Shown here one piece after another: positions 3,001 to 47,318 of a stretch of 64,000 nucleotides of DNA. Position 1 is the stretch's first letter; the number at the start of each line of letters is the position of its first letter. The position numbers and the translations under genes were made by a program. The stretch is from contig OX485808.1 of assembly GCA_950295325.1 (NCBI GenBank), forward strand, positions 43,175,180 through 43,239,179, in the 5' to 3' direction. Below the pieces are notes generated by a model, which saw only the letters and a list, made by a program, of their open reading frames with translations, made no database searches and had not been told where the DNA came from. This DNA comes from Polytrichum commune. Its lineage: Eukaryota; Streptophyta; Polytrichopsida; Polytrichales; Polytrichaceae.

Positions 3001-3974
3001 CTGTATCTTGCATGTCCGCATCTTCCACATCTTCCAAGAACTTCTTTTTCTCGTTAGATTTGGAGATTTTAGAGCTCAGGTTAGCGACGTCCTTAAGGAT
3101 CCCTTCCCGTTCTGGTAGGTGCAATAGCCTAACTATTTACACTGTGATATGGTGTGCCAGACTTTGAAATCTTGGCATTCCCTTGCAACCAATTTGGAGG
3201 TCAAGAGCCTGGCTCAAATGAGCAAATCAAGCAATTTGCTTGCACCAGGTTCAAGGCTGAGTACCCAATTTTTGATAAGGTACTTACCATTTGCTGAATT
3301 TTTTGTTTGTTTGTTTTGTTTTGGTTTAAATGTTGCAATGGTGTCTCTGTTTTAGTCAAGAACATGTGGGCAGCAGGTGGTAACTTGTGAACGTTTTGTT
3401 GGGGTGACAGATTGATGTGAATGGCTCAAAGGAGGCGCCACTTTACAAGTACTTGAAGTCACAGAAAGGTGGAGGCTTGTTGGGCGACAGCATCAAGTGG
3501 AACTTCGCCAAGTTCCTTGTTGACAAGAATGGGAAGGTCGTTGACCGATATGCTCCCACCACCTCTCCTTCCCATATTGAGGTATTTTTTTTTACGGACC
3601 CATGAAATGCCTCCATAAATTTTTGTTCCATGTGCATCACTTTAGGAATAAATTCAAAAAGGCTCTTTAGAGTGTAGGAATTGTGGCTGAAAGATGTGAT
3701 TGTTAACTAGCAGCGAGTTTCTTTGTAATATGGTTACATGCCATTTCTGTGTGGAATATAAACATAAGATTTGGTGGCTTCTGAATGGGTGATGGATGTG
3801 ATGATCAAAAATCTCACTGTGTCGAGTGTGTTGTGTACTCCACAGCTGTTTTTAGCAAAGAAGAGTGTATTAGGAAGAATATTGTTAGGCCAGAACCCCA
3901 CCTCTGACTCACCATCGTCTGTGCAATGTCTGCTGTAATTGCAGAAGGACATCAAGAAGTACCTCGATGCTTGA
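8..3974 (+). CDS. GPX: Plastid-type glutathione peroxidase (thiol peroxidase), six exons
   Basis: Exons read by GT-AG and conserved frame: 8-349, 2499-2575, 2827-2888, 3161-3279, 3411-3581, 3945-3974, giving 266 residues. The protein reduces hydrogen peroxide and lipid hydroperoxides; plant members use thioredoxin rather than glutathione and have cysteine instead of selenocysteine. Visible motifs: NVASACGLT with peroxidatic Cys140 (its codon is split by intron 2), [14 protein letters not shown] with Cys169 and Gln171, [11 protein letters not shown] with the usual resolving Cys188, and [10 protein letters not shown] with Trp230-Asn231. Residues 1 to about 95 are rich in Ser, Ala, Arg and Thr, as expected of a chloroplast transit peptide; the catalytic core begins at [12 protein letters not shown]. 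Met97 lies in a strong initiation context (ccaccatggc) and would give a 170-residue form without the leader. Only 7 bp precede the first ATG, so the promoter is outside the window. All junctions keep frame and no lesion is seen. Confidence 0.95.
402..1695 (+). repeat. Degenerate tandem repeats in GPX intron 1
   Basis: Intron 1 of the peroxidase gene contains about six diverged copies of a unit of roughly 150-180 bp, spaced about 190-280 bp apart. Copies start near 402, 624, 873, 1117, 1311 and 1588. Each has in order a 'gcgagagtgtggattttctt' type start, a 'catttctgtgcaattagac' type middle (weak in the last two copies), a 'tgcgttcagctgccaattgg' type segment and a 'ccggagtgatgtagccagt' type end. 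The copies decay progressively to the right. The array accounts for most of the first half of this intron. Confidence 0.8.
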
Positions 3975-12129: not shown

Positions 12130-12613
12130 TAATATTATATCACCCGTGTACAAGGCAACATACTAGGCATGTACCCACTCCAACGTTGACCATGTCTATT
12201 CTACACTAGTAACCCTAATTATCATTAAGTTCCCAACAATAAGTGAAGTTCCGAAGTAGTTTCCAAGTGAAAATGGATGTATGTTAGATGTACATAATAC
12301 AGACGACATGAATTTTAGCATTAACTACCTCTTTTAGTATGACAAAACAGAGATTCCAAATGTCGCATTATCGAGTGCCGTAGTCGTATAAAAGGGGGAG
12401 TTTTGAACTAACAAGTTTGGTCTCACAAAAATGTGTCATAATATCGAGGGTGTTGTATAAACGAGTGTCATATTAAGGATAATGTAAAGCGCGGACGCTT
12501 TGTCCGTTGTGCCAAAAAGGTCAACTACTACCGAATCCAAGCCGCATATAATGCGCGCTCAACCCTTAACCTAATACCTTAATATCTCGAGTCATGCATT
12601 GGCCCGCTCTTTA

Positions 12614-13146
12614 GGGCTGCTTTACACTTAGAGGCCGGGCCAATTCGTTGTGTAAGAGGCTTGAAATCCTCATTTGTGATTGGTCAAAAGGCTCAAATCG
12701 GCCCCAACCCCTTTACATCTAGAGGCCGGGCCGATTTGGTGGTATGATTTTTTAAATTAAAAAATGTATGTTATGACACGGCCCGAGCTCGTTGAATTGG
12801 GTGCACCCAAAATGGAAGGCCAATTCTTGGCCTAGAGGCCAATGTCATATTCCACTAAAAAAATCTTCTTAAATAAAGTATAATTTTTTAAAGTGAACTA
12901 GATCCATTGGATTATGTGGAATCTAAAGGCTCTATCTTAGATTATGCTACATCCGTTGGATTAGGCTAATTTTTTTGAATCAGCTTGGCTTCTTGGCCCG
13001 AGGGCCTTTACATATGGGAAAATTGGCCCCCGGTATAATCTTATTATAATGTGTAGTAGAGGCCGGCCTCCAACCCAAAAAAGGCTGAAATTTTGTGCAA
13101 TCGGCCTCAAGGGAAATTGGCCCGGTCTCTAGGTGTAAAGCGGCCC
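12614..13146. mobile_element. Tourist-like MITE, subfamily 1, copy 1 (TTA target duplication)
   Basis: It begins gggctgctttacacttag and ends ctaggtgtaaagcggccc, with TTA directly outside both ends (12611-12613 and 13147-13149). A 3-bp TTA duplication and a GGG/CCC-tipped inverted repeat are typical of PIF/Harbinger-derived Tourist MITEs. The element is 533 bp with no coding capacity. The copy at 15411-15813 lies in the opposite orientation. Confidence 0.8.
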
Positions 13147-15410: not shown

Positions 15411-15813
15411 GGGTCGCTTTACACCTAGAGGCTAGGCCAATCCCCCTTGAGGCCGATTGCATAATCCAACGGATCTAGCATAATCTAGCATAGAGCCATT
15501 TATATTTCCACATATTCCAATGGATATGGTTCCCTCAAAAAATAATAGTTTATTTTATTTTAAAAAATAAATTGAAATGTGACATTGACCCTGAGACCAA
15601 GAATTGGCCCTCTATTTTGGGTGCACCCAATTCAACGAGCTCGGGCCGTGTCAGACCATGCATTTTTTGATTAAAAAATTCATACCACCAAATCGACATG
15701 ACTTCTAGGTATAAAGGAGTTGGGTCCGATTTCAGCCTTTTGACCAATCACAAGTGAGGATTTCAAGCCTCTTACACAACGAATTGGCCCGGCCTCTAAG
15801 TGTAAAGAGGCCC
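15411..15813. mobile_element. Tourist-like MITE, subfamily 1, copy 2
   Basis: It begins gggtcgctttacacctagag and ends ctctaagtgtaaagaggccc, flanked by TTG on the left (15408-15410) and TTA on the right (15814-15816). This is a TTA duplication with one substitution. It is 403 bp and inverted relative to 12614-13146, with a central deletion. It is non-coding. Confidence 0.75.
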
Positions 15814-16084
15814 TTATCCTCCAAGAGGATGGATGTATTTCCTGACATGGGCTATTTTCGGTCTCGGCTGAAAGAGCCTAGAAAATGCCATAGCCGTTGA
15901 CCTATTTTATTAAACCCACGTGGGATATAAAATTGTATTGCCTAGGTGGCATCTTGAATTGGGTCAACCTTGAATGCGGACCGGGGCCCACCACCTCTAG
16001 TGTGTCTAGAAGCTCTTCCCCTATTGGCCCATGACATGCCTCCCTTGTCCCTTGGGTAAGGTAGGGAAAATGGGAGAACGTTGA

Positions 16085-18739: not shown

Positions 18740-19660
18740 TAGTACAACACTAGATATGAAATTTAGGGCCACTTCACACATGAGCCAAGAGCCGTGACCT
18801 TCTAATGGTGAGGACCCTTGACTCTCATCCAAAGGGCGTACCATGGGTGTTGGGAAAGCCGTTTTATGTAGTCTTGGGCCCTCAAGCAGTGTGTGAAGTG
18901 AGAATGAACCATGTTGCGGGACCATTGCATATTCTGTTGGCGGAAAAAGAGGGGAGGATTTGGTTTAATATAATATGTCTCCAAGTTTATCAATTTAAGA
19001 TAATTACTTGGTGGTGTTTGTTTGTCTTGGAATCTATCTTGGAATCTATTATAGAATATGGCATGTAGTCTGTCTTGAAATATGTCTTGCTGGAAAAATA
19101 TTAAAAAAATCATGGTCTCCCGGAATTTGCATCAAGCCCACCTCTTGGAGGTGGGTCTGACGCAAATTCCGGTAGACCATGCACCCTTATCCACAACCAG
19201 CCATGTAGGATTCCATGTAGACTTTTCATCCACGAACTTTTATTTGGACCTTTAGACCTTCACCTCCTAGTGTGAAGTGAACTTGGATGGTCTCTGCCTT
19301 TTCGACCAATGAGAGCTCTTACATTGCCATGGTCAAGGGCCTTCAACCTTATGTGTGAAGTGGCCCTTAGTGTCATATGGTATTTTATGTCGCTATGGTA
19401 TCTTTTTGGATGACACTTCTTATGATTAAGTGAACAAATATTGTCATTGATGATGGACGAGTTCGTCCATTGGCCAAATCCGCACCTTCTCTTGTCATCA
19501 ACTTACATGTGTGATGAAATATTGTCATGAATGGTTGAAATTTGGATGAATAATCACTCGATAAGTGACAGTAACTGCAACATTGTAAATCTATAATACC
19601 CCAAAGAACTTACAAGGCATGACAAATAATGTTGGGTTAACATTCGGTCATCATCAATAT
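18740..19660. mobile_element. Family B TIR element interrupted by a Tourist-like MITE
   Basis: The sequence acactagatatgaaattta up to 18765 and gtgtcatatggtattttatg from 19370 together match the uninterrupted terminal region of the family B copy at 42772-43149 (inverted there). The MITE at 18766-19366 therefore landed inside this element. The right half continues to about 19660 and then diverges. Confidence 0.7.
18766..19366. mobile_element. Tourist-like MITE, subfamily 2, copy 1
   Basis: It begins gggccacttcacacatgag and ends ttatgtgtgaagtggccc, with TTA on both sides (18763-18765 and 19367-19369). It is 601 bp. It contains an internal inverted pair (gtctcccggaatttgc / gcaaattccggtagac near 19111-19168). 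It is non-coding; copy 2 is at 20822-21320. Confidence 0.82.
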
Positions 19661-20821: not shown

Positions 20822-21320
20822 GGGCCACTTCACATACAAGCCAAGAGTTGTGACCATGAAATTGTGAGAGCCCAAAAGAAAGTGTCCAAAGGCCGTCCCA
20901 AGACACCTACAAGCTCATGTAGTGTGGTCACGGATTCTCAAGTGTAGTGTGAAGTCATACGTTACGGGCCCTCAACCGAATGCTATTTCAATGAATTTTC
21001 TATTCATGTGGGTCCTCACACATGGTAAAATAGAGTTAATCAACGGTTGTGAGCAATTGGAGTGCCATGGTCTCATGGTTTTGTGTTAGACCTACCTCCA
21101 AGAGGTGATTTTTGAAAACAATCCAAGTGATCATGAAACATGATCCATTCGATGCCATGTAGGAATCCATGTAGACTTTACATCCATCTTGCATTCACCT
21201 ACTCCATTGGTCCCTCAAGCGTAGTGTGAAGTGAACTTGGACCGGCTCCGCCTTTTCCACCAACATGAGTGCTTGAAGTGTAATGGTCACGGGCTCTCAG
21301 TCTCGTGTGTGAAGTGGCCT
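20822..21320. mobile_element. Tourist-like MITE, subfamily 2, copy 2
   Basis: It begins gggccacttcacatacaagc and ends cgtgtgtgaagtggcct, flanked by TCA and TTA, a one-base-diverged TTA duplication. It is 499 bp, in the same orientation as 18766-19366 and similar along its length. Its right end is only 47 bp from the Mutator-like element. Confidence 0.78.
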
Positions 21321-21358
21321 TTAGACAACGAGCTTGTGCCATTGACCTCATGCGGATG

Positions 21359-21367
21359 CAAACTTTT
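21359..21367. repeat. Left target-site duplication of the Mutator-like element
   Basis: The sequence caaactttt directly precedes the left terminal inverted repeat and is identical to 34538-34546. Nine bases is the typical Mutator-superfamily duplication length. Confidence 0.92.
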
Positions 21368-21617
21368 CCCTAACATTACCCAACCCAACAGTCATAATTG
21401 CATTCCGGTTCTCGAGGCTCGACAGAGGGGTGTCAGGGGTACTATGTGGGCGACCTGCTCCCAGGCCAGGCCGGCGCCCCAGCATGCAGCCCCGTGCGCC
21501 ATGCTGGCACCGGTTGCCCCTGTCTCCACGCTGGCACCGGTGCCACGCTGTCTCCCAGTTGCAACGTGTCGCCGGCCGCGCCACGTCCCCATGCCCATCC
21601 TCGAGGGTCGCCCATGC
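21368..21617 (+). repeat. Left terminal inverted repeat of the Mutator-like element
   Basis: 250 bp, strongly GC-rich after the first 70 bp, and closely matching the reverse complement of 34272-34537. It includes a small internal minisatellite based on cacgctggcaccggt. Weaker similarity to the right arm continues to about 21790. The ORFs across it on both strands are products of its composition, not genes. Confidence 0.92.
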
Positions 21618-21984
21618 CCTTGCGCCTCATCATGGCATGGGCCTCGGTATGGCCATGGCCTACACCCCCATCCCTACTGGTCATCCAGCCGCCCTCGGGG
21701 AGCGCGTATTTTCAAACATACAATGAACCACTCCTGATGCTTGTCTGTAACCTGCTCATTCTGTGGAGACTACAAATTTTTGTTGCAATGGAGAGTGATA
21801 CACTTGAGCAATGATGCGCACAAGGGTTTAGGACAAGATCACCTCATTGCTAGTTTCTTTTCGGGGTTCCTTTGCTTTCATGCTTCTGATTAATCGCAAC
21901 ATGCCCATTCACTAAACAATCTGCATTTCTGTAGCACTGGATTCTCTTGAATGTAATGATGCGACCTCTCCCTTTTCTTGTACT

Positions 21985-22250
21985 GAAGGTATATGTCGAC
22001 AAGTAGATCATTGTGCTTTCATCAGATCTGCACTCAACAATGCAGATCTGCTCTTCTCTTGCATGTAATGACAAGGTATATGTCGACATTGTGCTTTCAT
22101 TAGATCTGCACTCAACAATGCAAATATGCTCCTGTCTTGCATGTAATGATGTGAACCCAACACACATCTGCTCCTCTATTGCAGCCACTGATGTGACCCC
22201 AACGCAAATCTGCTCCTGTATTGCATCCTCGCAGACGAACCCAACAATCG
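21985..22250. repeat. Subterminal direct repeats in the left arm
   Basis: Units of about 60-85 bp contain agatctgcactcaacaatgc, 'ctgctc(t/c)t..cttgcatgtaatga' and 'tatatgtcgaca'. Two close copies (about 21990-22075 and 22076-22150) and two shorter derivatives are seen up to 22250. Subterminal repeats of this kind can serve as transposase-binding sites in TIR elements; that role is inference here. Confidence 0.65.
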
Positions 22251-22471
22251 CCCTCACTCATTGTGCTTTCCATATATGATATTAGATCTGCAGTACACCA
22301 TCGCGCGTGTTTGACTGTAACCTATCCATTTTCTGGTCACTCCCCACCTTGTGCCAGCTTTAGGGTTCTCCTCACTGCTTTTCATTTTTTGGTCACTCCT
22401 CACTTGGGTTAGGACGTTGTTACATGCACGACCAGCTGTAGGTGCTCGAAGTGCTCTAGAAGACAACATCA

Positions 22472-25247
22472 ATGGGATCCTGTGCTGAATTGTCAACTGC
22501 ACTAGATGTTATCCGAGATGGAGACCATGCCACTGAACGCACACTTCGCACTCCGTTGGCCGTGGATCCCTCCTATGAGTCTACATACCGGGAGGCACAC
22601 AAAGGGGAGTTTCAGCGGCTCCTCAGTTTGGTCCAGAGACCTCAAGCGGGAGCCTTCATGCACAGTGACCTATCGTGGGCAAGGCAAATCCGCCTGAAAG
22701 GGAGGAGGAGTGACCCCAAGACTCATGCAGCAACTTCGGTTGCATACATACCTTGGGCAAGAGTGCAGGATTTTCTCAAAGGTGAGGAGGCCCGCCTTGA
22801 TACTCCCTGCAAATTCGTTTGCTAAGGCACTCCATCGAACATACAAGGGAAACTAGTGTTCCCCCGTTGGAATAGCTATTCTGACGTCATCAGGTGTGTT
22901 TGTAATATGCAATTCCAATTCCATTTTCCCCGTTGCAATGTTACGACACAAAAACTTATATGGGCGTCTGGTGCCTGATATTCCCTTGCCGCACTTGTTG
23001 TCTGCCACATGTATCACTGCCAGTATGGGCCAAATGACAATGCCTCGCACATTCCAGTTGTTACAAAGGAAATGTACCAGAAGAAAAGAAAACTCGACTC
23101 CAAGGGCAAATATGTTCCAAATGGAAAGGGACACTCAGGTCCTCGCACGTCTGCGAGGATGAGAGGATTTGGGCAACGAAGGGGTTGCCAATGTGGTTTT
23201 GTTGTCAAACGACTATACCTTGAGCCCTCGATTGCAGAAGTAACGTACCATCAGATGCAACATGTCAACTTGGAAAGAATCTTCTGCCATGGCGTTACAA
23301 AGAGCGGCCATAAAAGCAGATTCTCTAGCCATCTCTCACCGCATGTTCGGGAATTCATCATGACTCATCTACGTTTGGATTTGTCCATCCCGCAAATAAT
23401 GGCAAAGCATAGGAAACGCTTCCTTGAAGTGTGTGAAAGGGGGGAAGAGCTTACAAGGGACCTCTTCATTTCTGACCAAGACATCCGTAACGTCGCTGGC
23501 CGCCTGGCAATAGAGACCTTCAAACGCGACAACAACAATGCAAAATTTGTTCGCATGTGGGTGCAAGAACATCCCCACCTCGTCTTCTACTACAAAGAAT
23601 CTGGCGTGCATGTTCGCGGCACTATTACACGCGACAACATTCCATTCACAATAGGTATCCAAACTGCGTGGCAACAAGATATGATGGTCAAGCACGGACA
23701 TAAAAAGGCTGTCTCCATTGATGCCACATTTGCAACAAATGAAAACAATATTTGTTGCTATCATGCTCCATGAACTCTCAAGTTACAGACTGTCAGAGGT
23801 ACTTGCTTTGCCAGATTCCATGTTACAACGGTGTTATCTGTAACATCTACCATCCCCCAGCATGTAATGTTATTATTTTTCCTTGTTATTGCAGTTTCCG
23901 CTCTACACCTTGATGGTGTTTGATGACTGGCTGAACGAAGTACCCGTGGCATACATTATTACATCGAGTTCCAAGCAACCCGATCTTGAACCATGGATGA
24001 CGGCGCTCAAGACGAAATTGGTGTCAGTGCAATCGGATTGGATGCCGAATGCTTTCATCACAGATTGTGCGCAGGCTGAGATCGGAGGGTTGCAATCAGT
24101 ATGGCCCGGAGTGAAAGTCTTTCTTTGCCTTTGGCATGTTCGTCGTGCATGGTTGAAACAGGCGGTGGCAAGAATTAAGGACCATGCTATCCGGGCTGGT
24201 GTGCTGAAAGGATTGGGTCGTATTATGTACGATACAAAGTGCCCCCAAGGAGATGAAATGGGGCCTTGGGCTCTTCGCCAACTCTCCGCTCTCATGGATA
24301 GCTTCTCCATTGTGACCAATTTTTGGGCGTATTTCAACAAACAATGGGCTGATAAGACCAATATGTGGGTTGTGGGGCATCGTAACCTGCCTTATGCTGG
24401 GCAGGACACAAATGCGGCAATCGAGAGCTACCACTCTAACCTTAAAGCCACCTTGCGTGCCTCAAAAGGAAGAGCGTATGGACGTCGTCTAGAGTGGGTC
24501 ATATACGAGCTGACGGAGGAAATCCTCTCCCACTATTGGTACCAGGCCATGAGGAAACAACATGGGTTCGTCCCCAACTTAAAACAGGAGCAATTCGTTA
24601 TCAATGCGGTTCTGAAAGCGAGAGAAATTTCGGACAGTTGTGTCACTCTCCCCATTGCGGATGACGCCCCAGCCATTGTAACCTCCAAGACAAACTCAGC
24701 TAAACGGTACTCTGTGTACAACCCAGACTGTGAGTGGGGTTGTTGTGACTGCGTGTGGGCGCTCAAGGGAAACATTTGCAAACATCAGATCAAAGTACTG
24801 ATGATGCTCCATCCTAGCCTAGCCGAAGGAACCATCACACGTTACTGTGGGTCCCTTGCAGGCACAACCAAAGGCGGCCGTGGTAACATGTTGGACCCTG
24901 TTGTGCATTTTCCATATGCTTGTTACGACACTGGATTAGCAGTGCCCACCTCCACACCCATTCTTGCTAGTGGCAGCCAACGTGTCCAACCATCTCATGA
25001 AGACATCGAATCCCATGTTCGCAACCTCGCAACACAGTTCTTGGACCTGACCACGGGTGATACTTTCCTGCTGAAGCACCTCCTGGTAGACCTGCACGTT
25101 GTAAGGGGGAAGCAACAGACATTGTTGGCTCAGATCAAACATGGGTTGGTTGAGCCCTCCCAAGTGGACTTGCATTTCTTGCCCATCAACGATGGCAGCA
25201 ACATGTCCCTCAAGCACAGGAAGGACTTTCTGGCCAAACGTCGGTAA
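22472..25247 (+). pseudogene. MULE transposase with SWIM zinc finger, probably damaged
   Basis: It catalyses cut-and-paste movement of Mutator elements. Coding blocks: 22472 to about 22893, about 23011 to 23753, and 23895-25247. A GCM1/FAR1-like N-terminal Cys/His arrangement is suggested by YHC, CQCGFVVKRL and YHQMQH. The DDE triad is visible: Asp in SIDATFATNENN (codon 23720), Asp in ITDCAQAE (codon 24063) followed by CLWHVRRAW, and Glu in NAAIESYHSNL (codon 24423). A SWIM finger, CDCVW...CKHQ, lies near 24740-24786. Three defects are seen: an in-frame TAA at 22823-22825 after which the same frame continues with GTPSNIQGKLVFP; the expected splice acceptor before 23011 reads cacat instead of cacag; and the donor at 23754 (phase 1) does not match the acceptor before 23895 (phase 0). 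Undetected introns could explain some of these. The family call is secure; functionality is doubtful. Confidence 0.85.
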
Positions 25248-25266
25248 CTAACTAGTGACAGTCAAC

Positions 25267-25358
25267 CACGTGTCGTAACACTGGCATGTTACAACATGGC
25301 CTGCACGTTACGACACATGCCACACGTGTGTTCACGTGCTGAGGTCTAGGGTATATAA
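25267..25358 (+). promoter_or_regulatory. TATA box with three CACGTG motifs
   Basis: A TATATAA at 25352-25358 lies 133 bp before the ATG at 25491. Upstream are three palindromic CACGTG (G-box) motifs at 25267, 25323 and 25333 and an ATGTTACA at 25286. The arrangement looks like a plant core promoter reading right, separate from the transposase gene that ends at 25247. Confidence 0.6.
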
Positions 25359-25490
25359 GGTCACGACCAGCCCTCAAGGAGACAGGTTCCATTCGTCCGC
25401 TTTAGTTTCGTATGGTTAGGCAAGAGGTTGCATTAGCATTAGCACTCTCCACCATCTCCCTCCTCCTTTATACCCCACTTTCCCGCATCC

Positions 25491-25730
25491 ATGGCCCGTT
25501 TTGACGTCGCGCGAGTTGGCCAGTCTGTCTGGAAATGGCTTTGTAGATGCCCCGATGCCATCGGACCCGTTGAAGATGGTTCAAGCGACGACGAATTCTT
25601 CACGCCTCCAACGACGCCAGGGCGTTACACCAAAGAGCACCATGTGGACACCTCCAAGCGATCGGATTCGGTCTTCACACCCACAGCATGCGCCGTTCCA
25701 AAGTTGCTCTCGCCGGCGCAGACTGCTTGA
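25491..25730 (+). CDS. Small ORF of unknown function inside the transposon
   Basis: 79 codons from an ATG 133 bp downstream of a TATA box. The protein begins MARFDVARVGQSVWKWLCRC, then has an acidic stretch (EDGSSDDEF) and a TPPTTP segment. No family is recognised and no signal peptide or membrane segment is evident. An aataaa at 25922-25927 could serve as polyadenylation signal. It could be a short protein of the element, a first exon spliced to something downstream, or a captured host fragment. The protein assignment is tentative; the promoter context is the main support. Confidence 0.4.
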   Translation: MARFDVARVGQSVWKWLCRCPDAIGPVEDGSSDDEFFTPPTTPGRYTKEHHVDTSKRSDSVFTPTACAVPKLLSPAQTA

Positions 25731-26345
25731 CTGCGGTGCCGACATGCAGAGGTTGTGCGGCAGCTGGTTACCCCAGCTCCAATCATCACACCCCCCCCCC
25801 CCGCAAGGACCTCTAAAGGCTTACCAGCGGCCGATTAAGGTTTACAGGCCTGTGTGGGTCCCGTAGTGTGTGCATGCATGTTACATCGCCAATATGTTCA
25901 CGCAGTTTCAAACGTAGGCTTAATAAACACATTTTGTTTCGTGCATGACTTGTTCTGATGCATGAATTGTCTTGCAACCTGTTCTGCTGTATATGTTCTG
26001 ATGTGTATGCGAGTTGCAAGTACATGTTAGACGTGCACGTGGGTTCCCATTCTGCGGGAGCATCGCAACACATTTTCGGCATACTTTACATCTTGTCATG
26101 CTTCACAAACAACGCATTTTGTATTGGGACTGGGTGAATAAAAGGGGGAAATGTTATTCCATGTTACAACTTTTACACATCAATCGGCATATTACATCAC
26201 AAGGGACCCGTAGCTTGGATGGTTTGCAGAGAGTTTGCAACAAAGCTTATCCTTAGTTTTTCTTCCATCCCGTGCTAAACATCAACCTGGAATACACACA
26301 CGCATGCCCTAAGTCTCTTGCAACAATTGCAACAGTAACCTAAGC

Positions 26346-29300
26346 CTAAATCTGCGATGCATCCGAAATGCCGTCCGTAGTCGTGGCAGAATGTGGCTGA
26401 CTGGTGGCATCCACGCAGGCCTCGCGGGCAATCTGGGAAACCTGGCCAAATGTGTTTACATCCACCTCGCATGCTCCAACGGGAGGCTGGGGAGTGCCCA
26501 CGACGTCCAACTCTCCGCCAAGACTACGTGCTGTAACATGGGCAGCTGTAGAGTTAGGGGACACGGAATCTTGCCACTCAAAATCGAGTTGGCTCGGCAA
26601 GTCCTCCATGCTCTTTCCCTGGGTCATGGGGATGTGAAATGCCGGCTCAACATGCGCTGGGCTTTGAGGACATGGCTGGGACGATGGCTGGGACGCCCTG
26701 CAAGACGTAGATTCCCGCGCTGGTGTGGCATGGGCTGGTGGTAGCACCTCCGAGTGCTCCAAGCGCTCTTTCACAAAGTTGTTGCCAATGTTGCGAAGCT
26801 CCTCCATGTACTCGGGTCGCTCCAACGAGGGGACGAGGACATCTGCGAAGGAGTGCACACATGCAATTGCTTAATGGGGCTGGGTACATGGATGTTGAAG
26901 GCGGTGCATTAATATGTTACAAGGTTGAAATGTTAGCAAAATACCTGGGTTTCCAAGAACATAGCCAATGTCCAAGTCTTCCCGATGATGTAACCAACTC
27001 TCGTAACATGCAAGGGGGGGTGAGTGAGTGTTGGGACGATTTCGAATCACCCAAGCGTTCAGCCATTCTGACTTGGAGTGAAACGCCATGTCCTGCAATG
27101 CCCTGAACTGGATGGAGTTGCACCACCTACGGAAATCTGCCCACCACTGAGGTGTGGGAATTTTCAATTCCATCCAGGCTGCTTCCACGGCTGCAACCCA
27201 CTCTTGCCGCGAATCCCCAAACCTGGCATCTGCAAACACAAGGAAACCCTCATTTTTCAAGTAACATCTGGCCAAATACCACGCACGTGCACCCTCTCCA
27301 TTGCTTTCTTCGGCAAGCTTCAACCACTCCGTAACGTTGCCGACAGATCCACCGCTGTGTGGGTGAGAGAGGGGAGGGGGCACCATGATATAGAATTTCA
27401 AGAAGCAACGAAGGAGAAGCACGGACCAAGGCACAGGGTAAGCTCTCTCAACATGGGATTGCTGCAAGAGGGACGCATGCACTCCTAAACCCTCAACGAC
27501 TGAATGGTACAAAGGGTAGGAGGGTCTGAAGTTTTGGCTCAAAGGGTTAGAAACGAATGCGGCATAGAAAGGGTGCCACCCCCATGTGGCCTCCAGCAAA
27601 CGGGGGAAGTGCACATTGTCCCACTCTTTCATGGCCCCTGAAACGATGTCATTAATCTTCGCCTGCCGCTCTTCCTCCCACAGTTTGCGTTGTTTGTTGA
27701 CCTCGCGTGCCTCAACTGTGTGCTGGACGTAGTGGCATAGGCCACCAATCTCGGACTGAAGCGCGGCCTCGTCGTCTACCTGGCTCATTGCTACGTTGAC
27801 GATCTTCGTGATTAGTGGCGTTACATGTGGTTTAGCCTGCGTCAACATATAGAACCCATGTTACAAACTTATTATGCTACAGCCATGTGCTGTGTGACAG
27901 ACCATTATCTTAGAAGACCATAAGCAAGCACGAAATCTACTTGAATGCTAGTGAACGCTGATTGAAAGCTTAGCTCAGGCAGAATTCAATTTACAGGGCC
28001 CTATACTTGCTGATTTCCTGGCTCAAACTACCGTGGCCACCCTAAACCATACCACAACCCCATTTCATATTCAAAATTTCCATGTACAATAGCCTGAAGC
28101 ATGTTACAACGCATATACTTTGAAGCCAATGCGCCAGGTTAGGAGAAGACAGAACATTTACCTGATGCTTGTGCCAGGAAAATCTACCATAGGCAGCGAA
28201 CAACCGGTCCATATACGCCGGGTCATTCCTCCAATTGTCAATCTCCTCCTGAAACGCATGGTAGTCACCGCACTCGAGGTCAAATTTCAACAAACCACAT
28301 GGTATTAAATGAAACAAGCCTGGGGGTTGAATTGGGGGCCTCAACGCTGGTTTGGGGACTTCCATCCTCACAGATCCACGGGCTGCAGCTGCTGCTTGCA
28401 CATAGAAGAATTGCCGCTCCTTCTTCAACACCGTTGCAATATCAGGCGCACTTCTTGAGGCCTACATGGGGGGAACATGACTTCCAATATCAGGCTCACC
28501 TCTTGCGGCCTGCATGGGGGGAACAGGGGTAACAGGTGGCGTAAGGGCAGCCTGTGGAATGGGCGAAGGAGGAGCCAAGATGATCCTCCTCTCTGGGGTT
28601 GGGCTGCGAGAAGCGATTGGCTTCACACTAATGGGGTGGGGAGGCGGTGCAGGTGCAGCTTGGGCAGGTTGTGGAGGCGGAGTCGGGTGGTGTCTCCTTG
28701 ACACAGAGTTCCATTGGTGGGTGGAGGTGAAAACCCGATGGCCCTCCTCCATCCGTGCGTGACTTCGTTTCTTGGGCCGAGAAAGTGGAGGTTCCCCCTC
28801 ATCGGTGGCGTCATCCCCTAGGTCCACAACCTCTTCCAGGGGGGGTGGTGGGGTACGTCGTAAGGGAGACCGATCTGCTCTAGGGGCCGATTGCGACCCA
28901 CCCTCCGGCCTTGGATGTGAAGCTCTCAATCGGTCGATGGAGCGCTCCATGAACCGCCGCACCTGCACTCTCGCTCCAGGGGGAGGGTACGTTATCTCCA
29001 TTAGCTCCGGGTTTAGCTCGAGCCACATTGAATTATCTTGCAAATTGTCCCAAACCGCACGTTCATGTGGTACTTTTGGGCCACCCCCTTTCGAGGGAGC
29101 CTAAAAGTATCACACAAGCCCTTCGGTGAAGGTGGCCTGCATTTGCAGGCGCCCAAGCCGAACCCGGATGATAGGTGTATAACGTGAGTAGTTAGATTTT
29201 TAAGGGAGATTAAATTGCGTCGTAGTACCTCCGGAGGTTAGGCCTTAGTTTTTTACTAGTGTGGCTTTAAACTCCACTAACCAATTTCATATCTAGTTCT

Positions 29301-32300
29301 AACCTTAACCTACAACCTATTCTACGCGCAGACGCACCAGCCTTGAAACCAAGGCAATCCTAATTTGTGAATTGGGATGGTTCTGATACACCCAACCGGG
29401 TGTGACTCATACTATCCTAACTCAACGAACGGAATAACGACAATTTGATGGACCATTCAATTCTTCCTATTTCTTTATTTAGTTCTATTTAGTTTTCTAA
29501 GCGGGGGAACTTGGCCTAAGTCCCACCCTTCACACAAATTCCTTCTTAATTACTTACTTTTGTTTGCACGTCCTAACTTACTACATTAACATATTAGGCA
29601 TCACCCCTTACCTCGGGTCTCTTGCCAACAAGGGTTTACGATTTATTTTGTATGTTTTGATTGTTAAATGTGTTTACACTGGATAGACCACGAAATGCAA
29701 CTCAATGGGACCAGGGTGACGGGCGACCTGTAGGTTCAACCTGTTGCGCAATCTTCATAAATTGGGGCCATTACTCCCAATCTATGGGGCCAACAACATA
29801 ATAGTGGATTCGCGGGTCATTAACCCCACCTTTCCACCAACAACATTCAGAGTGGTCGTGTCGGTGATTAATCCGACTTACCACACACGAAACTTGCTAA
29901 TAAATGAAGCTACTACCACAAAACATATCAAGGGCCCCGAAAACAATGGAATTGGGTACTCCCTTGGCGGTCAAGTGGTCAAGCCACTTGACCTTACGAG
30001 ATAGGTGAGTGGGTTTAGAGATGCGTACCTTAGCCGTGCTCCCTCCAATCCTAAATGGAAGGCTTAAGGTTAGTTAATTTACCTCAATTTTCCTCGGTTG
30101 ATTTGGGCTTGATGTAGGCCGAGCCACTACCTCCTTCCTTGCTCCACTTTCCGAGCGTCGACCTTGCCTCCTTCTTTGTAACTAGTTTGGTAGTAAGCGT
30201 ACCTTAGTTAACAATTAAAATATAAAGTGTTATTCTGCCCTGTAATTTAATCCTAAGCATAATTTTTATACTTAGTGCACCAAATTATCTTTCCAATGAT
30301 CTAAAAATCACTCTAATCAGATAAGAAATGCAAAAGTTATGAGGGTTGGAAGTATGAGGTCGATTCAACCGACCCTTCCAACCCACCTATCTACCTTCTA
30401 ACTTCAAAAATTCATAGCACATTCCTTACTACTTGGATCTAGGCTTTCCTTATACCATTGGAAAGCTATGAACAAGCTCTAACTAGAAAAATTATGACAT
30501 CAGCAGGTTAAGCTAATAGAAATTCAGCGGACTCCTTGTAACACAGCAGTCAATCAAGAAGGCTTAAACTATGTATCTCGCCTTCAACAATTCATATCTA
30601 ATTCAAATCTTATTCAAATCAAACGTTCTATATGACCCTGGAGAGATATTAAAAATATGTATTTGATAAAAATATGTGATTAGAAAGGTAAGCCGAAGTG
30701 AACCCAGCAGGTCCTCTGTAATGCAGCAGTCAACCAAAAGTTCTCAAACTATGTGTCCCATCTTGCATAATTCATATCTGATTCAAATCATGCTCAAATC
30801 AAATGTTCTAAGCCATTTTGGAAAGCTACACAAAAGTTCTACTTGGGAAAAATATAATTTCTTGGAATTAAAATTCCTATTGGGCTCGCAGGTCTGATCC
30901 AGCAGCCGCTACCCACAAGACCACCCAGTTTTTCTACTCCATCTTTGAAAATCCATAACTAATTGTCATCTTAACCAAATCACAAATGGGAAACGGCTAT
31001 GGATAGCTATATGAAATCTCTCTAAGAGAAAAATGATAAGTATCTTGTTCTAGCTTTTGAACTAAGCCTTCAGGGCATTGGCAGATGAGGTCTATAATGC
31101 CTCTACTCAAAACTCTACCATCCAACCTACCTCTACAAAAGAAGGAATAATTTTGTTGGTGTGTTAATAAATACACAACCTAACTAGAAAAGAGAGAGTA
31201 GAGGAGGTTCTCAAGCCTTTCTTCTAGACCATTGAGAATACATGCTAAAGGATTTTTTCCTAACTACATTGAAGCAGGGCTTCGCCCAAAAACTAGAGAA
31301 AGAGAGAGAGCTACAAGGTGGAAGGAGGGGTTTTTAAACCCTCTCACAAAAGGGTTGGACCCCTCCTCCACCGGATCCATTTTTCAAACCCTTTCCCGAA
31401 ATTTTGGCTCGGGGGTTTTCCCGGTTGAGGTTGCCACCCTCTCGCCGAGGTGGCTCCGACAAAAAACCTTTAGAAATCTTTCTAATTTTTCCGCCATCGA
31501 GTTGGCAAGGGTCAAGTATCCCCCTTGCTCTCTTTCTTTTTTTCTTCAAAATTCTTCACGCCGATTTTATCTTCTTACGTAAAACACCTCCAATAGTCTT
31601 GTGTGCCTCACACTAACTAATAAACTAACACTTGCTTAGCTAGCATTTACTAACATTTGCTTAATAACTAGCATCTACTAATATTTGCTTAGCTAGTTGT
31701 TTTTACTAGCTAGCACATTTTTTCTACTTTGCTATCTTCTAGCACTACTTAGTTTCATTTTGACCTTCCTTCTTCTAAGCTAAATGCTAAATGAACTAAT
31801 TTTTCCTAAATTCCCTATCAATTCTAACTTTTAATGCTAACATTCTAACTAAAAGTGATCCCGCAGAGTGGTGGACCACTCAAAGGGTTCACAGTTCACC
31901 TCGTTCGATTGCTGCTTTCAGGTCTTTACCTTGCTTCGCTGTCTTGAGGTTGGGGTAGACCGGGAGCTCCAACTTTGCGCCATTTGGGTCAACGGGTCCA
32001 CATGGGCAACCCCCCACCCTATGATCCGTCAAGCGCAACTTGCTTGGGAAAGATGACCTGCAGTAGACACACAACCAGACGTCCCTCGACTTATGCCCAT
32101 CTCGACATCGATTGCGTGTACATTCGAGCTTGAGCTCGATGTACACCCGCCTCTTGACAGTCTGCTGCACCCAACCTTGCGAGTCTCTGTTCACAAAATA
32201 TGTGACCTCATCCACTTCGAGAAACGTTGCTTCTGCAGCGGCTTCCATAGTTTGCACAGCACAATGGAGGTCAATGGCACGAAACAGAGCATACTGAGGC

Positions 32301-32434
32301 GCCATCATGAAGGAATTGGGGTGGCAGTTTGAGGCGCAGGGAAAAGACATGAAGGTGCGCCTGTGTTGATAGTTGTGTCCCTGGGGAACAACTGCCCCAA
32401 CGGCCATGGCCAGCAAACTCAGAATATGCGCCAA
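26346..32434 (-). CDS. Long convergent gene of unknown family carried by the transposon
   Basis: Read on the minus strand. Coding blocks: about 32434-31900, 29087 to about 28480, about 28470-28162, 27836-26945 and 26842-26346. The last two junctions (28162/27836, phase 0; 26945/26842, phase 1) are clean GT-AG joins. The first (31900/29087) also joins in phase 1. The join near 28480 is unresolved because of a local duplication. Total is roughly 940 residues. The N-terminal part has a zinc-finger-like WLCVYCRSSFPSKLRL..H..GGCPC. Next comes a basic, Pro-rich, probably disordered region (PRPEGGSQSAPRADRSPLRR, PPPPLEEVVDLGDD). Then follows a Trp- and aromatic-rich globular part (WGWHPFYAAFVSNP, ARAWYLARCYLKNEGFLVFA, PTPQWWADFRRWCNSIQFRA) and a Ser/Pro-rich tail. 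I recognise no known family. The start codon is not certain; an internal ATG near 32407 is possible. Position and conserved reading frames argue that it belongs to the element. Confidence 0.6.
28443..28550. repeat. 52-bp tandem duplication at an exon boundary of the accessory gene
   Basis: The segment containing gcctgcatggggggaacag is followed (minus-strand sense) by a second copy, with cttgaggcctacatgggggg in place of cttgcggcctgcatgggggg. Because the unit is not a multiple of three, the downstream copy is out of frame and carries a TAG. This makes the exon 2/3 junction ambiguous. Confidence 0.65.
29101..31856. mobile_element. 2.7-kb insertion in an intron of the accessory gene
   Basis: The 8-bp sequence ctaaaagt stands at both ends (29101-29108 and 31849-31856). 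Removing the insert and one copy leaves a 72-nt intron between 31900 and 29087. The insert (29109-31848) is AT-rich. It contains three diverged direct segments (near 30420, 30580 and 30770) with the 'aattcatatctaattcaaat' motif, a pattern common in long LTRs of plant retrotransposons. Near the left end are two small stem-loops (gcctgcatttgcaggc and ccttcggtgaagg). No TG...CA termini or terminal repeat are seen and no protein domain is recognised, so the class is open. Confidence 0.6.
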
Positions 32435-32693
32435 GGGAATTTTGTTAAACCTTCTGTATGATTTACCTAAACAGCACTACAAACAATACTAAAATCAGCA
32501 GCAGTCATTGCAGATTCATATTCCCTTGCTCTGACTGCGTGTTGTGACATCCAACATGATGTATGCTGCCCCTAAACTTCTTCTGACCCTAAACTATCCT
32601 GACTGTGAACTCTTGTGACTTTGAAGTCTCTTGACCGTAAATTGTTCTGCCTTCATGCCAAGCGCATTGCTGAAGCAGCTCTAACATTATTGT

Positions 32694-32740
32694 CTAACAT
32701 TACCCTAACATTACCCTAATTGGATTCCCTAACATTACCC
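32694..32740. repeat. Internal array of the element's terminal motif
   Basis: Three copies of taacattaccc follow each other within 47 bp, two directly adjacent and one after a short gap; the last reads ccctaacattacccaa. This is the same sequence as the first 16 bases of the terminal inverted repeat. It lies about 1.8 kb inside the right end, 5' of the accessory gene. Confidence 0.75.
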
Positions 32741-33270
32741 AAGCAGTTCCTTGTAAACCCTGACCAATCTCCCCGGCTTCTGTGCCTCCTTCACAATGTT
32801 CAGCAATCTCCCGTTCCCGAGTACCAGAATGCTACGGTCGGATGGAACTCAGCTGAACCCTGATTCCTGCTTCCCCAAACTCCTCTCCTTGTCGACCTCC
32901 TTGACAGCCCCAAGTGAACCTCCCCAACCCTAAAGACTCCTTCAAAGTAAGCCTCCGCAGAAACCCTAAACCAGCACGAAGTAAGACCACCACGGTAGAC
33001 TCAAACTCCTCACCTTCTCCGACTCTCCCTCACAACCCTGGCCAAGGCTGCGTGGAAAAACAGCGGCTGCTCCAACTACCAACCCACCCCTAAACCCCTT
33101 CGAAGCTCAAAATTTTTGCAGGTAAGATTCGCCCACACAGAGCACAACATAGCATAGCAGAGCAGCAAGATCTGCTCTGGACCTCATGACCCTAAACCTC
33201 TGCACATTGCAGACTCGGAAGCACTCACACGCGAAGCACACAGAGTAGACCTGCAGTACTTGAATTCTGA

Positions 33271-33520
33271 ACTTGGAGACTAACGTCGCCCCTAACAAGT
33301 TTAGGGCGATCGATTGCCACAGATCTGGAGTCTGTAAGTTTAATGGTACTAGATGGCCATGGCGATAGAGATGTTGGTCGCATTCAGAAGACCACCCCAA
33401 ACAACGTGGCGACAGCGACAACCCATGCCGCACCAAACCCTAACCCGTAGGAGACTAACTTCGGAGACTAACTACACCCCTAACAGCATTTGGTCGATCG
33501 ATTGCCACAGATCTGAACTT
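33271..33520. repeat. Direct repeat pair in the right arm
   Basis: Two segments about 190 bp apart share gagactaac, 'cccctaaca' and cgatcgattgccacagatct. They lie between the accessory gene and the right terminal repeat. No ORF is convincing in this arm. Confidence 0.6.
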
Positions 33521-34271
33521 TGCAGACCACAAGCACTGCACTAACAAGCAGACCAGAAACTCTGCCTAACAAACCCTAGCCAAACACAAAACATTGCCAT
33601 ATAGAAAAGGTAAATAAGGGAAAACTGCAGCATAAAGATAGGAAAGGCATGTTACATTATGCCACGTGATGCTTGGATGTTCGATGGTCCTTGTAACCAC
33701 GTGCCTTCGATGTTGCGCTCCTAAACCAGCTAGGAATCTTGTGCGGCACCCTGGTGGTCGGCGTCGCTCCTGCCTGGCAACAAAGCAAAACATGAGCACA
33801 CAATCATATTGACGTGTATGTGATTGCGGCAATGACAATATACACAATGCATTTATGCCTTCTGTAACATGACTGGCCTAAACCCCAAAAAACCCCAAAA
33901 CAAAGTACACTGACTGGGTGGCCTAAAGCAAAACATCATATCCCTAAACGCACACATCATCAACATGCGGCTCAAACAAAAGTTGCAAAAACACATTCAA
34001 CTTGCAGCGCACTCAGAAGTTGCAATGACAGGGAAGCGGGGGTTTGGAATTCGAAGTGGCCAAACTCACCTTGATTGTTACACGCTCTTCGAAAAGCCGC
34101 AGTTTGGGTGCGATCAGCAGCACCACCACCAACTACCCTGCAAGCAGCATCACCTTCGAATCGCAGGTACCCTAAACAAAGAAGAATTTGCGGCAAAAGC
34201 TTCGAGTCTCCATCGCAACAGCAGGTTACACACAACAGGTGGTTGAAGGCCATGGCGCGCCCGAGGCCATA

Positions 34272-34537
34272 GCATGGGCGACCCTCGAGGATGGGCATGG
34301 GGACGTGGCGCGGCCGGCGACACGTTGCAACTGGGAGACAGCGTGGCACCGGTGCCAGCGTGGAGGCAGGGGCGACCGGTGCCAGCGTGGGCGACGGCCA
34401 GCGTGGCGCACGGGGCTGCATGCTGGGGCGCCGGCCCGGCCTGGGAGCAGGTCGCCCACATAGTACCCCTGACACCCCTCTGTCGAGCCTCGAGAACCGG
34501 AATGCAATTATGATTGTTGGGTTGGGTAATGTTAGGG
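34272..34537 (-). repeat. Right terminal inverted repeat of the Mutator-like element
   Basis: 266 bp, the inverted counterpart of 21368-21617. It is longer by about 16-18 bp because the internal cacgctggcaccggt minisatellite has one more unit. Apart from that the two ends differ by only scattered substitutions. Confidence 0.92.
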
Positions 34538-34546
34538 CAAACTTTT
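34538..34546. repeat. Right target-site duplication of the Mutator-like element
   Basis: The sequence caaactttt is identical to 21359-21367 and directly follows the terminal ggg. Confidence 0.92.
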
Positions 34547-47142: not shown

Positions 47143-47318
47143 CATCTATATCCATATCCATATCCATATCCATATCCATATCCATATCCATATCCATATC
47201 CATATCCATATCTATATCCATATCCATATCTATATCCATATCCATATCTATATCTATATCCATATCCATATCCATATCTATATCCATATCCATATCCATA
47301 TCCATATCCATATCCATC

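Follow-up and report, generated by a model that had tools for sequence, protein, structure and literature searches.

A decayed two-gene Mutator-like element and its nested insert

The stretch analysed here (the window) is 64,000 nucleotides of the Polytrichum commune genome (contig C6, 43175180-43239179) and holds a Mutator-like element (MULE), termed copy A, with long terminal inverted repeats (TIRs), a transposase gene (gene 1) and a long second gene on the opposite strand (gene 2), the latter split by a solo long terminal repeat (LTR). We consider it probable that this feature is one decayed copy of a ~10.3-kb two-gene MULE family, the leading guess for gene 2 being that its product recognizes a short motif repeated in the element. 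The features, in window coordinates, are as follows.

21359-21367, no strand: left 9-bp target site duplication, CAAACTTTT (sequence read and alignment)
21368-34537: MULE copy A, 13,170 bp between the duplications CAAACTTTT
21368-21617, plus strand: left TIR, 250 bp, starting CCCTAACATTACCCAACCC, with a GC-rich 27-bp tandem unit inside
22472-22893, plus strand: transposase exon 1, mapped by alignment from the copy F model; premature stop in copy A
23011-23749, plus strand: transposase exon 2; in copy A each flanking intron has one damaged splice site
23895-25247, plus strand: transposase exon 3, with most of the MULE domain and a SWIM-type CxC..CxH motif
23819-33871, no strand: eleven CATGTTAC/GTAACATG sites, starting at 23819, 24883, 25285, 25877, 26160, 26533, 27003, 27857, 28100, 33648 and 33864
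26346-26842, minus strand: gene 2 exon 3, mapped from the copy F model
26945-27836, minus strand: gene 2 exon 2, a conserved Trp-rich domain of ~300 aa
28162-29065, minus strand: gene 2 exon 1, 3' part, proline-rich; stop in copy A
29061-29065, no strand: left 5-bp duplication of the solo LTR, GTTCA
29066-31893, no strand: nested solo LTR, 2,828 bp, TGTGG...TTCACA on the plus strand, splitting gene 2 exon 1
31894-31898, no strand: right 5-bp duplication of the solo LTR, GTTCA
31894-32407, minus strand: gene 2 exon 1, 5' part, holding a CxxC..H..CxC motif
34272-34537, minus strand: right TIR, 266 bp
34538-34546, no strand: right 9-bp target site duplication, CAAACTTTT (sequence read and alignment)

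An earlier note on this stretch had described a structurally complete, unusually large and cargo-bearing MULE whose TIRs are long and GC-rich and whose 9-bp duplication is perfect. The element with its TIRs and its duplication is real: the arms, which at 250 and 266 bp count as long TIRs, matched at 92.5% over 266 columns (one 16-nt gap counted), and CAAACTTTT occurs exactly at both borders, its length lying within the 8-11 bp typical of MULEs and the chance of an exact 9-bp match at this fixed offset being ~5e-6 given the window composition. The label of structurally complete applies to the ends and not to the genes, both of which are broken in copy A. The tip of the element starts CCCTAAC, comparable with the telobox-like word CCCTAAAC. 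The left flank (21222-21367) is the edge of an abundant repeat with 1689 candidate places in the genome, including a 78% copy at window positions 19268-19370; a flank-junction query for an empty site with a single duplication found no spanning place among the 40 of these 1689 candidates that were scored, in one genome.

Gene models were derived from the sequence of copy F (C5:50416926-50426899), the only one of six aligned copies with both genes open, and have three exons per gene. The 837-aa transposase model matched the MULE transposase domain PF10551 above the cut-off (E 2.1e-13; 3.4e-8, also above the cut-off, for the window exon) as well as ZSWIM1-3_RNaseH-like (2.6e-8), and contains a SWIM-type motif, CDCVWALKGNICKH (CxC..CxH). 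Pfam SWIM had no match on the 837 aa, and a PDB sequence search with the transposase returned none up to E 1. We take the D/D/E candidates to lie in SIDATF, ITDCA and AAIESYH. The domain and motif are compatible with the DDE/SWIM-type transposase of the earlier note, the D/D/E residues and the zinc finger being candidates; by its MULE domain, target site duplications and long TIRs the element belongs to the MULE superfamily. Besides the lesions of exons 1 and 2 in the transposase of copy A, its gene 2 is broken by the solo LTR plus a further stop; copies B, D and E carry stops, a frameshift or a lost start, and in copy G the transposase is open and gene 2 is frame-shifted. An alternative splice keeping the window transposase open was dropped after comparison among copies.

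The stretch at 29066-31893 is a solo LTR nested in gene 2, because it has a 5-bp duplication of its own, has copies elsewhere and faces an uninterrupted site in copies B, C, D, E and F. Its ends are TG...CA and its sequence is that of paired LTRs elsewhere: two direct copies on contig C3 start 7,415 bp apart (coordinates only), and this pair (10431593-10441841) looks like both LTRs of one full element. The same LTR lies at a different position in copy C, with the duplication AACCC. Since 2.83 kb of copy A is this nested insert, the native length of the element is ~10.34 kb, and the label of unusually large, given for 13.2 kb, does not hold. The converse, that 13.2 kb is native and the 2.8-kb stretch was lost from the other copies, has virtually no probability: it is ruled out by the LTR's own duplication, its dozens of other genomic places and the intact site in B, C, D, E and F. 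Long transposons should therefore be searched for nested inserts before they are named unusually large. The LTR family is highly abundant (1014 candidate places), and because the 40 places scored (the window's own included) were all 98-100% identical, a recent burst is suggested.

A family of large copies and its conserved second gene

The genome searched comprises 407.8 Mb in 64 contigs, seven of which make up 406.07 Mb. The search with the terminal repeat that the earlier note had proposed did reveal further copies whose 9-bp duplications differ: the left arm returned 25 matches, many combining as pairs into large elements, and among eight paired large copies (A in the window and B-H elsewhere) five had a perfect 9-bp duplication (CAAACTTTT, GAAGATATT, GTGTCGATC, CAAGCGCCC and CACTTTTAG). 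Eight regions were fetched besides the window, and the ninth region so obtained had a single end only. The 19-bp tip CCCTAACATTACCCAACCC, allowing at most one mismatch, occurred 107 + 115 times in the whole genome, and the reversed pattern 0 + 0 times. Of 12 tip loci (L048-L059) picked from among the tip matches listed, 11 were elements of 354-371 bp with both ends and a perfect 9-bp duplication, resembling miniature inverted-repeat transposable elements (MITEs); they have the first 19-21 bp in common with the large element and a different interior. The family is therefore made up of both large copies and MITE-like derivatives. Copies F and G, which lie on separate chromosomes, were 99.68% identical over 9,957 aligned bases, and the outer arms of copy H were identical (317/317 bp), which together point to recent movement.

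As in other MULEs, the transposase would attach to the long TIRs and move the element by a cut-and-paste route that generates 9-bp duplications. In copy A, an LTR retrotransposon entered gene 2 and left its solo LTR, and the transposase decayed too, so that this copy, its ends being intact, could at most be mobilised in trans; the ~360-bp tip-sharing derivatives presumably moved in trans as well. Several other copies have complex surroundings. Copy C (C7:16967226-16995142, L011-L013) spans 27.9 kb with three nested inserts, namely the same LTR and others of ~0.41 kb and ~14.3 kb. In the region of copy H (L022-L023, C3:19730384-19749900) an inverted family end abuts the left side of H's duplication, and a further right end is placed 317 bp inward of H's own. 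Copy F adjoins a more diverged gene-2 match (C5:50427754-50428653, 55% identity).

The long second gene of the earlier note is present as a 943-aa, three-exon model (copy F), convergent to the transposase, and the CxxC..H..CxC of its first exon is presumably a zinc-binding motif. An alignment of exon 2 from 24 copies (the window, D, E, F and 20 fetched loci, mostly chosen without internal stops from 90 merged) had 34 invariant columns with many Trp, Pro and Gly residues. No convincing Pfam relative emerged from a profile scan of the 24 members, in which weak HSA-domain matches (best E 0.0042, 8/24 members) were not taken up; a PDB sequence search returned weak matches only (best E 0.069), and two structure predictions for exon 2 (mean predicted local distance difference test scores, pLDDT, of 43 and 47) were too poor for a fold search.

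Gene 2 and the transposase recur together across the genome. There were at least 122 gene-2 and at least 116 transposase matches, both lower bounds, with 130 of 177 and 94 of 652 first-look candidates scored, respectively; linkage was counted with all 122 gene-2 rows and 95 transposase rows out of 116, those omitted being the 21 weakest matches over short stretches. Close transposase loci (≥69% identity) had gene 2 within 10 kb at 43 of 54, convergent in 43/43, and gene-2 loci of ≥50% identity had a transposase within 10 kb at 46 of 65, convergent in 45/46. By random placement, 0.46 of 90 gene-2 loci would on average obtain a transposase partner. Between subfamilies, the ratio of nonsynonymous to synonymous divergence (dN/dS) was 0.23-0.28 for the transposase (dN 0.06-0.07) and 0.30-0.40 for gene 2, which changes more quickly (dN 0.13-0.16). 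By this linkage and substitution pattern, gene 2 is the family's own conserved accessory gene, under purifying selection between subfamilies.

MULEs often capture genes, and such frequent capture, together with the lack of a convincing Pfam match, would favour the view that gene 2 is captured host cargo (a Pack-MULE or domestication reading). However, gene 2 occurs throughout the family in convergent orientation to the transposase and is therefore not cargo, contrary to the description of the element as cargo-bearing; the convergent linkage at 43 of the 54 close transposase loci speaks strongly against a captured host gene, as do a copy number like that of a transposon (122 matches) and the purifying selection seen between subfamilies. 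We reject this view, to which we give only a slight residual probability. Nor does gene 2 represent a captured host gene fragment as in Pack-MULEs.

Sister-clade transposases (41-48% identity) formed 31 merged loci, two of which had a gene-2-like partner within 10 kb, both convergent (L046 and L047; weak tblastn matches of 4.5e-8 and 1.4e-5). The convergent gene at L047 encodes a domain homologous to gene-2 exon 2 (hhalign probability 97.7%), and a Peptidase_C48 stretch (E 3.5e-6) lies on that strand too; the scanned stretches of L046 gave no peptidase match. Because an exon-2-like domain stands in this convergent gene, the accessory gene may be old, one branch possessing a peptidase and the other lacking one. 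Kaonashi-type MULEs carry a Ulp1 peptidase, and the L047 locus resembles them in its Peptidase_C48 stretch and convergent accessory region, whereas the window family has no peptidase. Gene 2 might then be a peptidase-less relative of an Ulp1-type accessory protein, acting on SUMO pathways through its remaining domain, as the homologous domain and Peptidase_C48 stretch on one strand at L047 would allow. However, the Pfam scan of gene 2 found no Peptidase_C48, unlike in Ulp1-carrying MULEs, and the peptidase matched at just one of the two scanned sister loci; we regard this origin as quite improbable. Downstream of the L047 transposase (3014-3409) lies a 28-35-bp tandem array of ACTGAATGACA-like words.

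A repeated non-coding motif and the putative role of gene 2

Over-represented words in the non-coding DNA of copy F were CATGTTAC, ATGTTACA and TGTAACA, together with the telobox-like CCCTAAAC. The motif was picked on copy F and then checked on the others, with A, B, D, E and G alignable with F and hence not independent tests: CATGTTAC occurred 11 times in A (LTR removed), 12 in B, 17 in D, 16 in E and 12 each in F and G, against shuffled means of 0.07-0.37. CCCTAAAC was enriched too (6-14 per copy vs shuffled means of 0.13-0.47). None of the sites in copy A falls in the LTR. CATGTTAC appeared once in each window flank (21-29 kb), never in the flanks of B, D, E and G, and three times in the 2-kb flanks of F, beside another gene-2 match; genome-wide there were 18,001 sites (0.44 per 10 kb), and 15,809 for the reversed word. 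As a yardstick, the top 8-mers in 4-kb chunks of the window flanks were low-complexity words, tandem-repeat words or words with 3-8 occurrences.

The motif also extends to more distant relatives. Six diverged members (54-71% identity to the window copy in the exon-2 domain) held CATGTTAC 7-10 times per 3.3-4.0 kb of masked DNA (coding masked by tblastn matches only; stretches extending past the element tip), and one of the motif's words ranked first among 7-mers in four of the six and second in one. Copies A, D and F together had 18 non-coding ATGTTAC columns, six of them common to all three. Among 133 ATGTTAC sites, the preceding base was C in 104 and the following base A in 86, giving the consensus CATGTTACA with near-random outer flanks. 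The sister loci L046 and L047 had no CATGTTAC and one ATGTTAC between both; their non-coding DNA (coding DNA masked by hand-listed open reading frames) held GTCATTCA 18 and 9 times (vs ~0.4) and GAAGGAC 15 and 7 times (vs ~0.2). Thus, the motif is kept across members with an exon-2 domain just 54% identical, and other motifs are used in the sister clade (two loci). Because the motif persists while its individual sites turn over, and is not the same in the two clades compared, its pattern fits binding sites of an element-encoded regulator. CATGTTACA might instead be a host transcription-factor or promoter motif used by the element, with gene 2 acting otherwise, as the sites in leaders, introns and spacer and the enrichment of telobox-like CCCTAAAC could suggest; yet sites also lie in introns and in the convergent spacer, and the two sister-clade loci of the same genome use other words, so we judge this unlikely.

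We tentatively propose, at somewhat less than even chances, that the gene-2 product binds CATGTTAC(A) sites in the element's introns, leaders and spacer, with CATGTTACAA as the candidate target sequence, and that this binding protects the element against silencing; gene 2 would then work like, without being, the VANC proteins of Arabidopsis VANDAL elements. The published systems compared below are taken from portions of the cited reports. VANC proteins induce methylation loss in Arabidopsis (PMC5735166, PMC10398659); VANC21 binds YAGTATTAY, which recurs densely in the non-coding DNA of VANDAL21, and the motifs of VANC6 are different ones (PMC5735166, PMC10398659). Like VANDAL21 (Hiun), the window family has non-coding parts dense in one family-specific short motif, and it also resembles VANDALs in having another member with other motifs and an accessory protein whose divergence exceeds that of the transposase. 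In contrast, VANDAL21 has three genes and two were found here, and anti-silencing has been demonstrated there and is proposed here. The domains described for VANC are DUF1985 and DUF287 (PMC5735166), and gene 2 had no Pfam match to either; consequently, it is not classed as VANC, although it may work like one. A genome search for DUF1985 gave nothing over the cut-off, its control returning 0/14 genomes and leaving it without a positive control.

Several results, including this lack of DUF1985/DUF287, weigh against our reading of the family and of gene 2. Three of the eight paired large copies deviate from a perfect 9-bp duplication (one of 10 bp, one of 8 bp and one with none), and 11 of the 54 close transposase loci and 19 of the 65 gene-2 loci have no partner within 10 kb. 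Selection is visible only between subfamilies, since dN/dS is higher among close pairs for both the transposase (A-B 0.69; D-E 0.33; F-G 1.1 on 10 changes) and gene 2 (A-B 0.55; D-E 0.42; F-G 0.6 on 6 changes), as expected of mostly decaying copies. The motif sites are dispersed and on both strands, whereas those of VANDAL21 form same-orientation tandem arrays, and three of the eleven in copy A lie in exons. In the sixth diverged member another repeat's words take the top eight ranks, the motif being present seven times, and the sister-clade word signal comes from two loci compared and lies partly inside a tandem array. Host factors could bind the motif. Either a host factor on the motif or a helper role like that of mudrB is possible.

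MuDR is ~4.9 kb long. It has two genes transcribed in opposite directions (PMC9168764, PMC3276141), and the MuDR group is described with TIRs of 30-320 bp, 9-10-bp duplications and SWIM (PMC6446971). The window family shares the two opposed genes with MuDR (mudrA and mudrB), the likeness of gene 2 to mudrB being one of opposed position, and differs in being about twice as long and in its 943-aa accessory protein; mudrB is given as present only in Zea in the portion of PMC3276141 drawn upon. Gene 2 could accordingly assist transposition or integration, a role proposed for maize mudrB, with the motif as a protein-assembly site for moving, and MURB has been reported as crucial for insertion (PMC9168764). 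However, the ~360-bp derivatives have moved (9-bp duplications in 11/12), yet 10 of the 12 fetched loci lack ATGTTAC. As most sampled MITEs are without it, the motif is not required in cis for movement. We therefore hold the helper role to be rather unlikely, albeit only slightly less probable than motif-based anti-silencing.

Two-gene and opposite-strand MULEs are already known besides MuDR. Barley Hvu_Abermu is 8,176 bp (8.2 kb) long, with TIRs of 138-145 bp, 9-bp duplications, an 826-aa transposase and an opposite-strand accessory open reading frame, ORFR, that evolves faster than the transposase under purifying selection (PMC9168764). By description, this matches the window family in large size, 9-bp duplications and a faster-evolving opposite-strand accessory gene under purifying selection; the window family differs in its ~10.3-kb length, the two genes found and an accessory gene that is family-wide in the genome, and also in its repeated short motif, which the portion of PMC9168764 used here does not mention for Abermu. 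Mutyl of Yarrowia has an antisense second open reading frame, MutB, with a C2H2-type finger, 9-10-bp duplications and 22-bp TIRs (PMC6446971), and so is alike by description in its duplications, antisense frame and finger, and unlike in its short TIRs.

Among the papers listed by searches of an open-licence library, we found no report of a MULE with a CATGTTAC-type motif or of VANC-like motif clusters outside VANDALs, nor did those listed for the motif as a word contain it. MULEs outside VANDAL may have a self-recognition anti-silencing system made of an orphan accessory protein and a repeated 9-bp non-coding motif, a generalization that we offer with the same reserve as the mechanism itself. 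If true, the VANC principle would have arisen a second time or would exist here in a much older form. The role of opposite-strand MULE accessory genes is left open in the portions of PMC3276141 and PMC9168764 consulted; because this family has one copy with both genes open, numerous diverged relatives, an orphan domain that is conserved and a well-defined candidate binding motif, the question becomes directly testable.

Elsewhere in the window, two 242-bp inverted repeats (12613-12854 and 15573-15814) are 88% alike with 2.7 kb between them, and no exact 5-, 8-, 9- or 10-bp duplication was found when both ends were shifted symmetrically by up to 6 bp. The window also contains a phospholipid-translocating ATPase gene and a syntaxin gene, and an ATCCAT hexamer array of 29 copies at 47144-47317.

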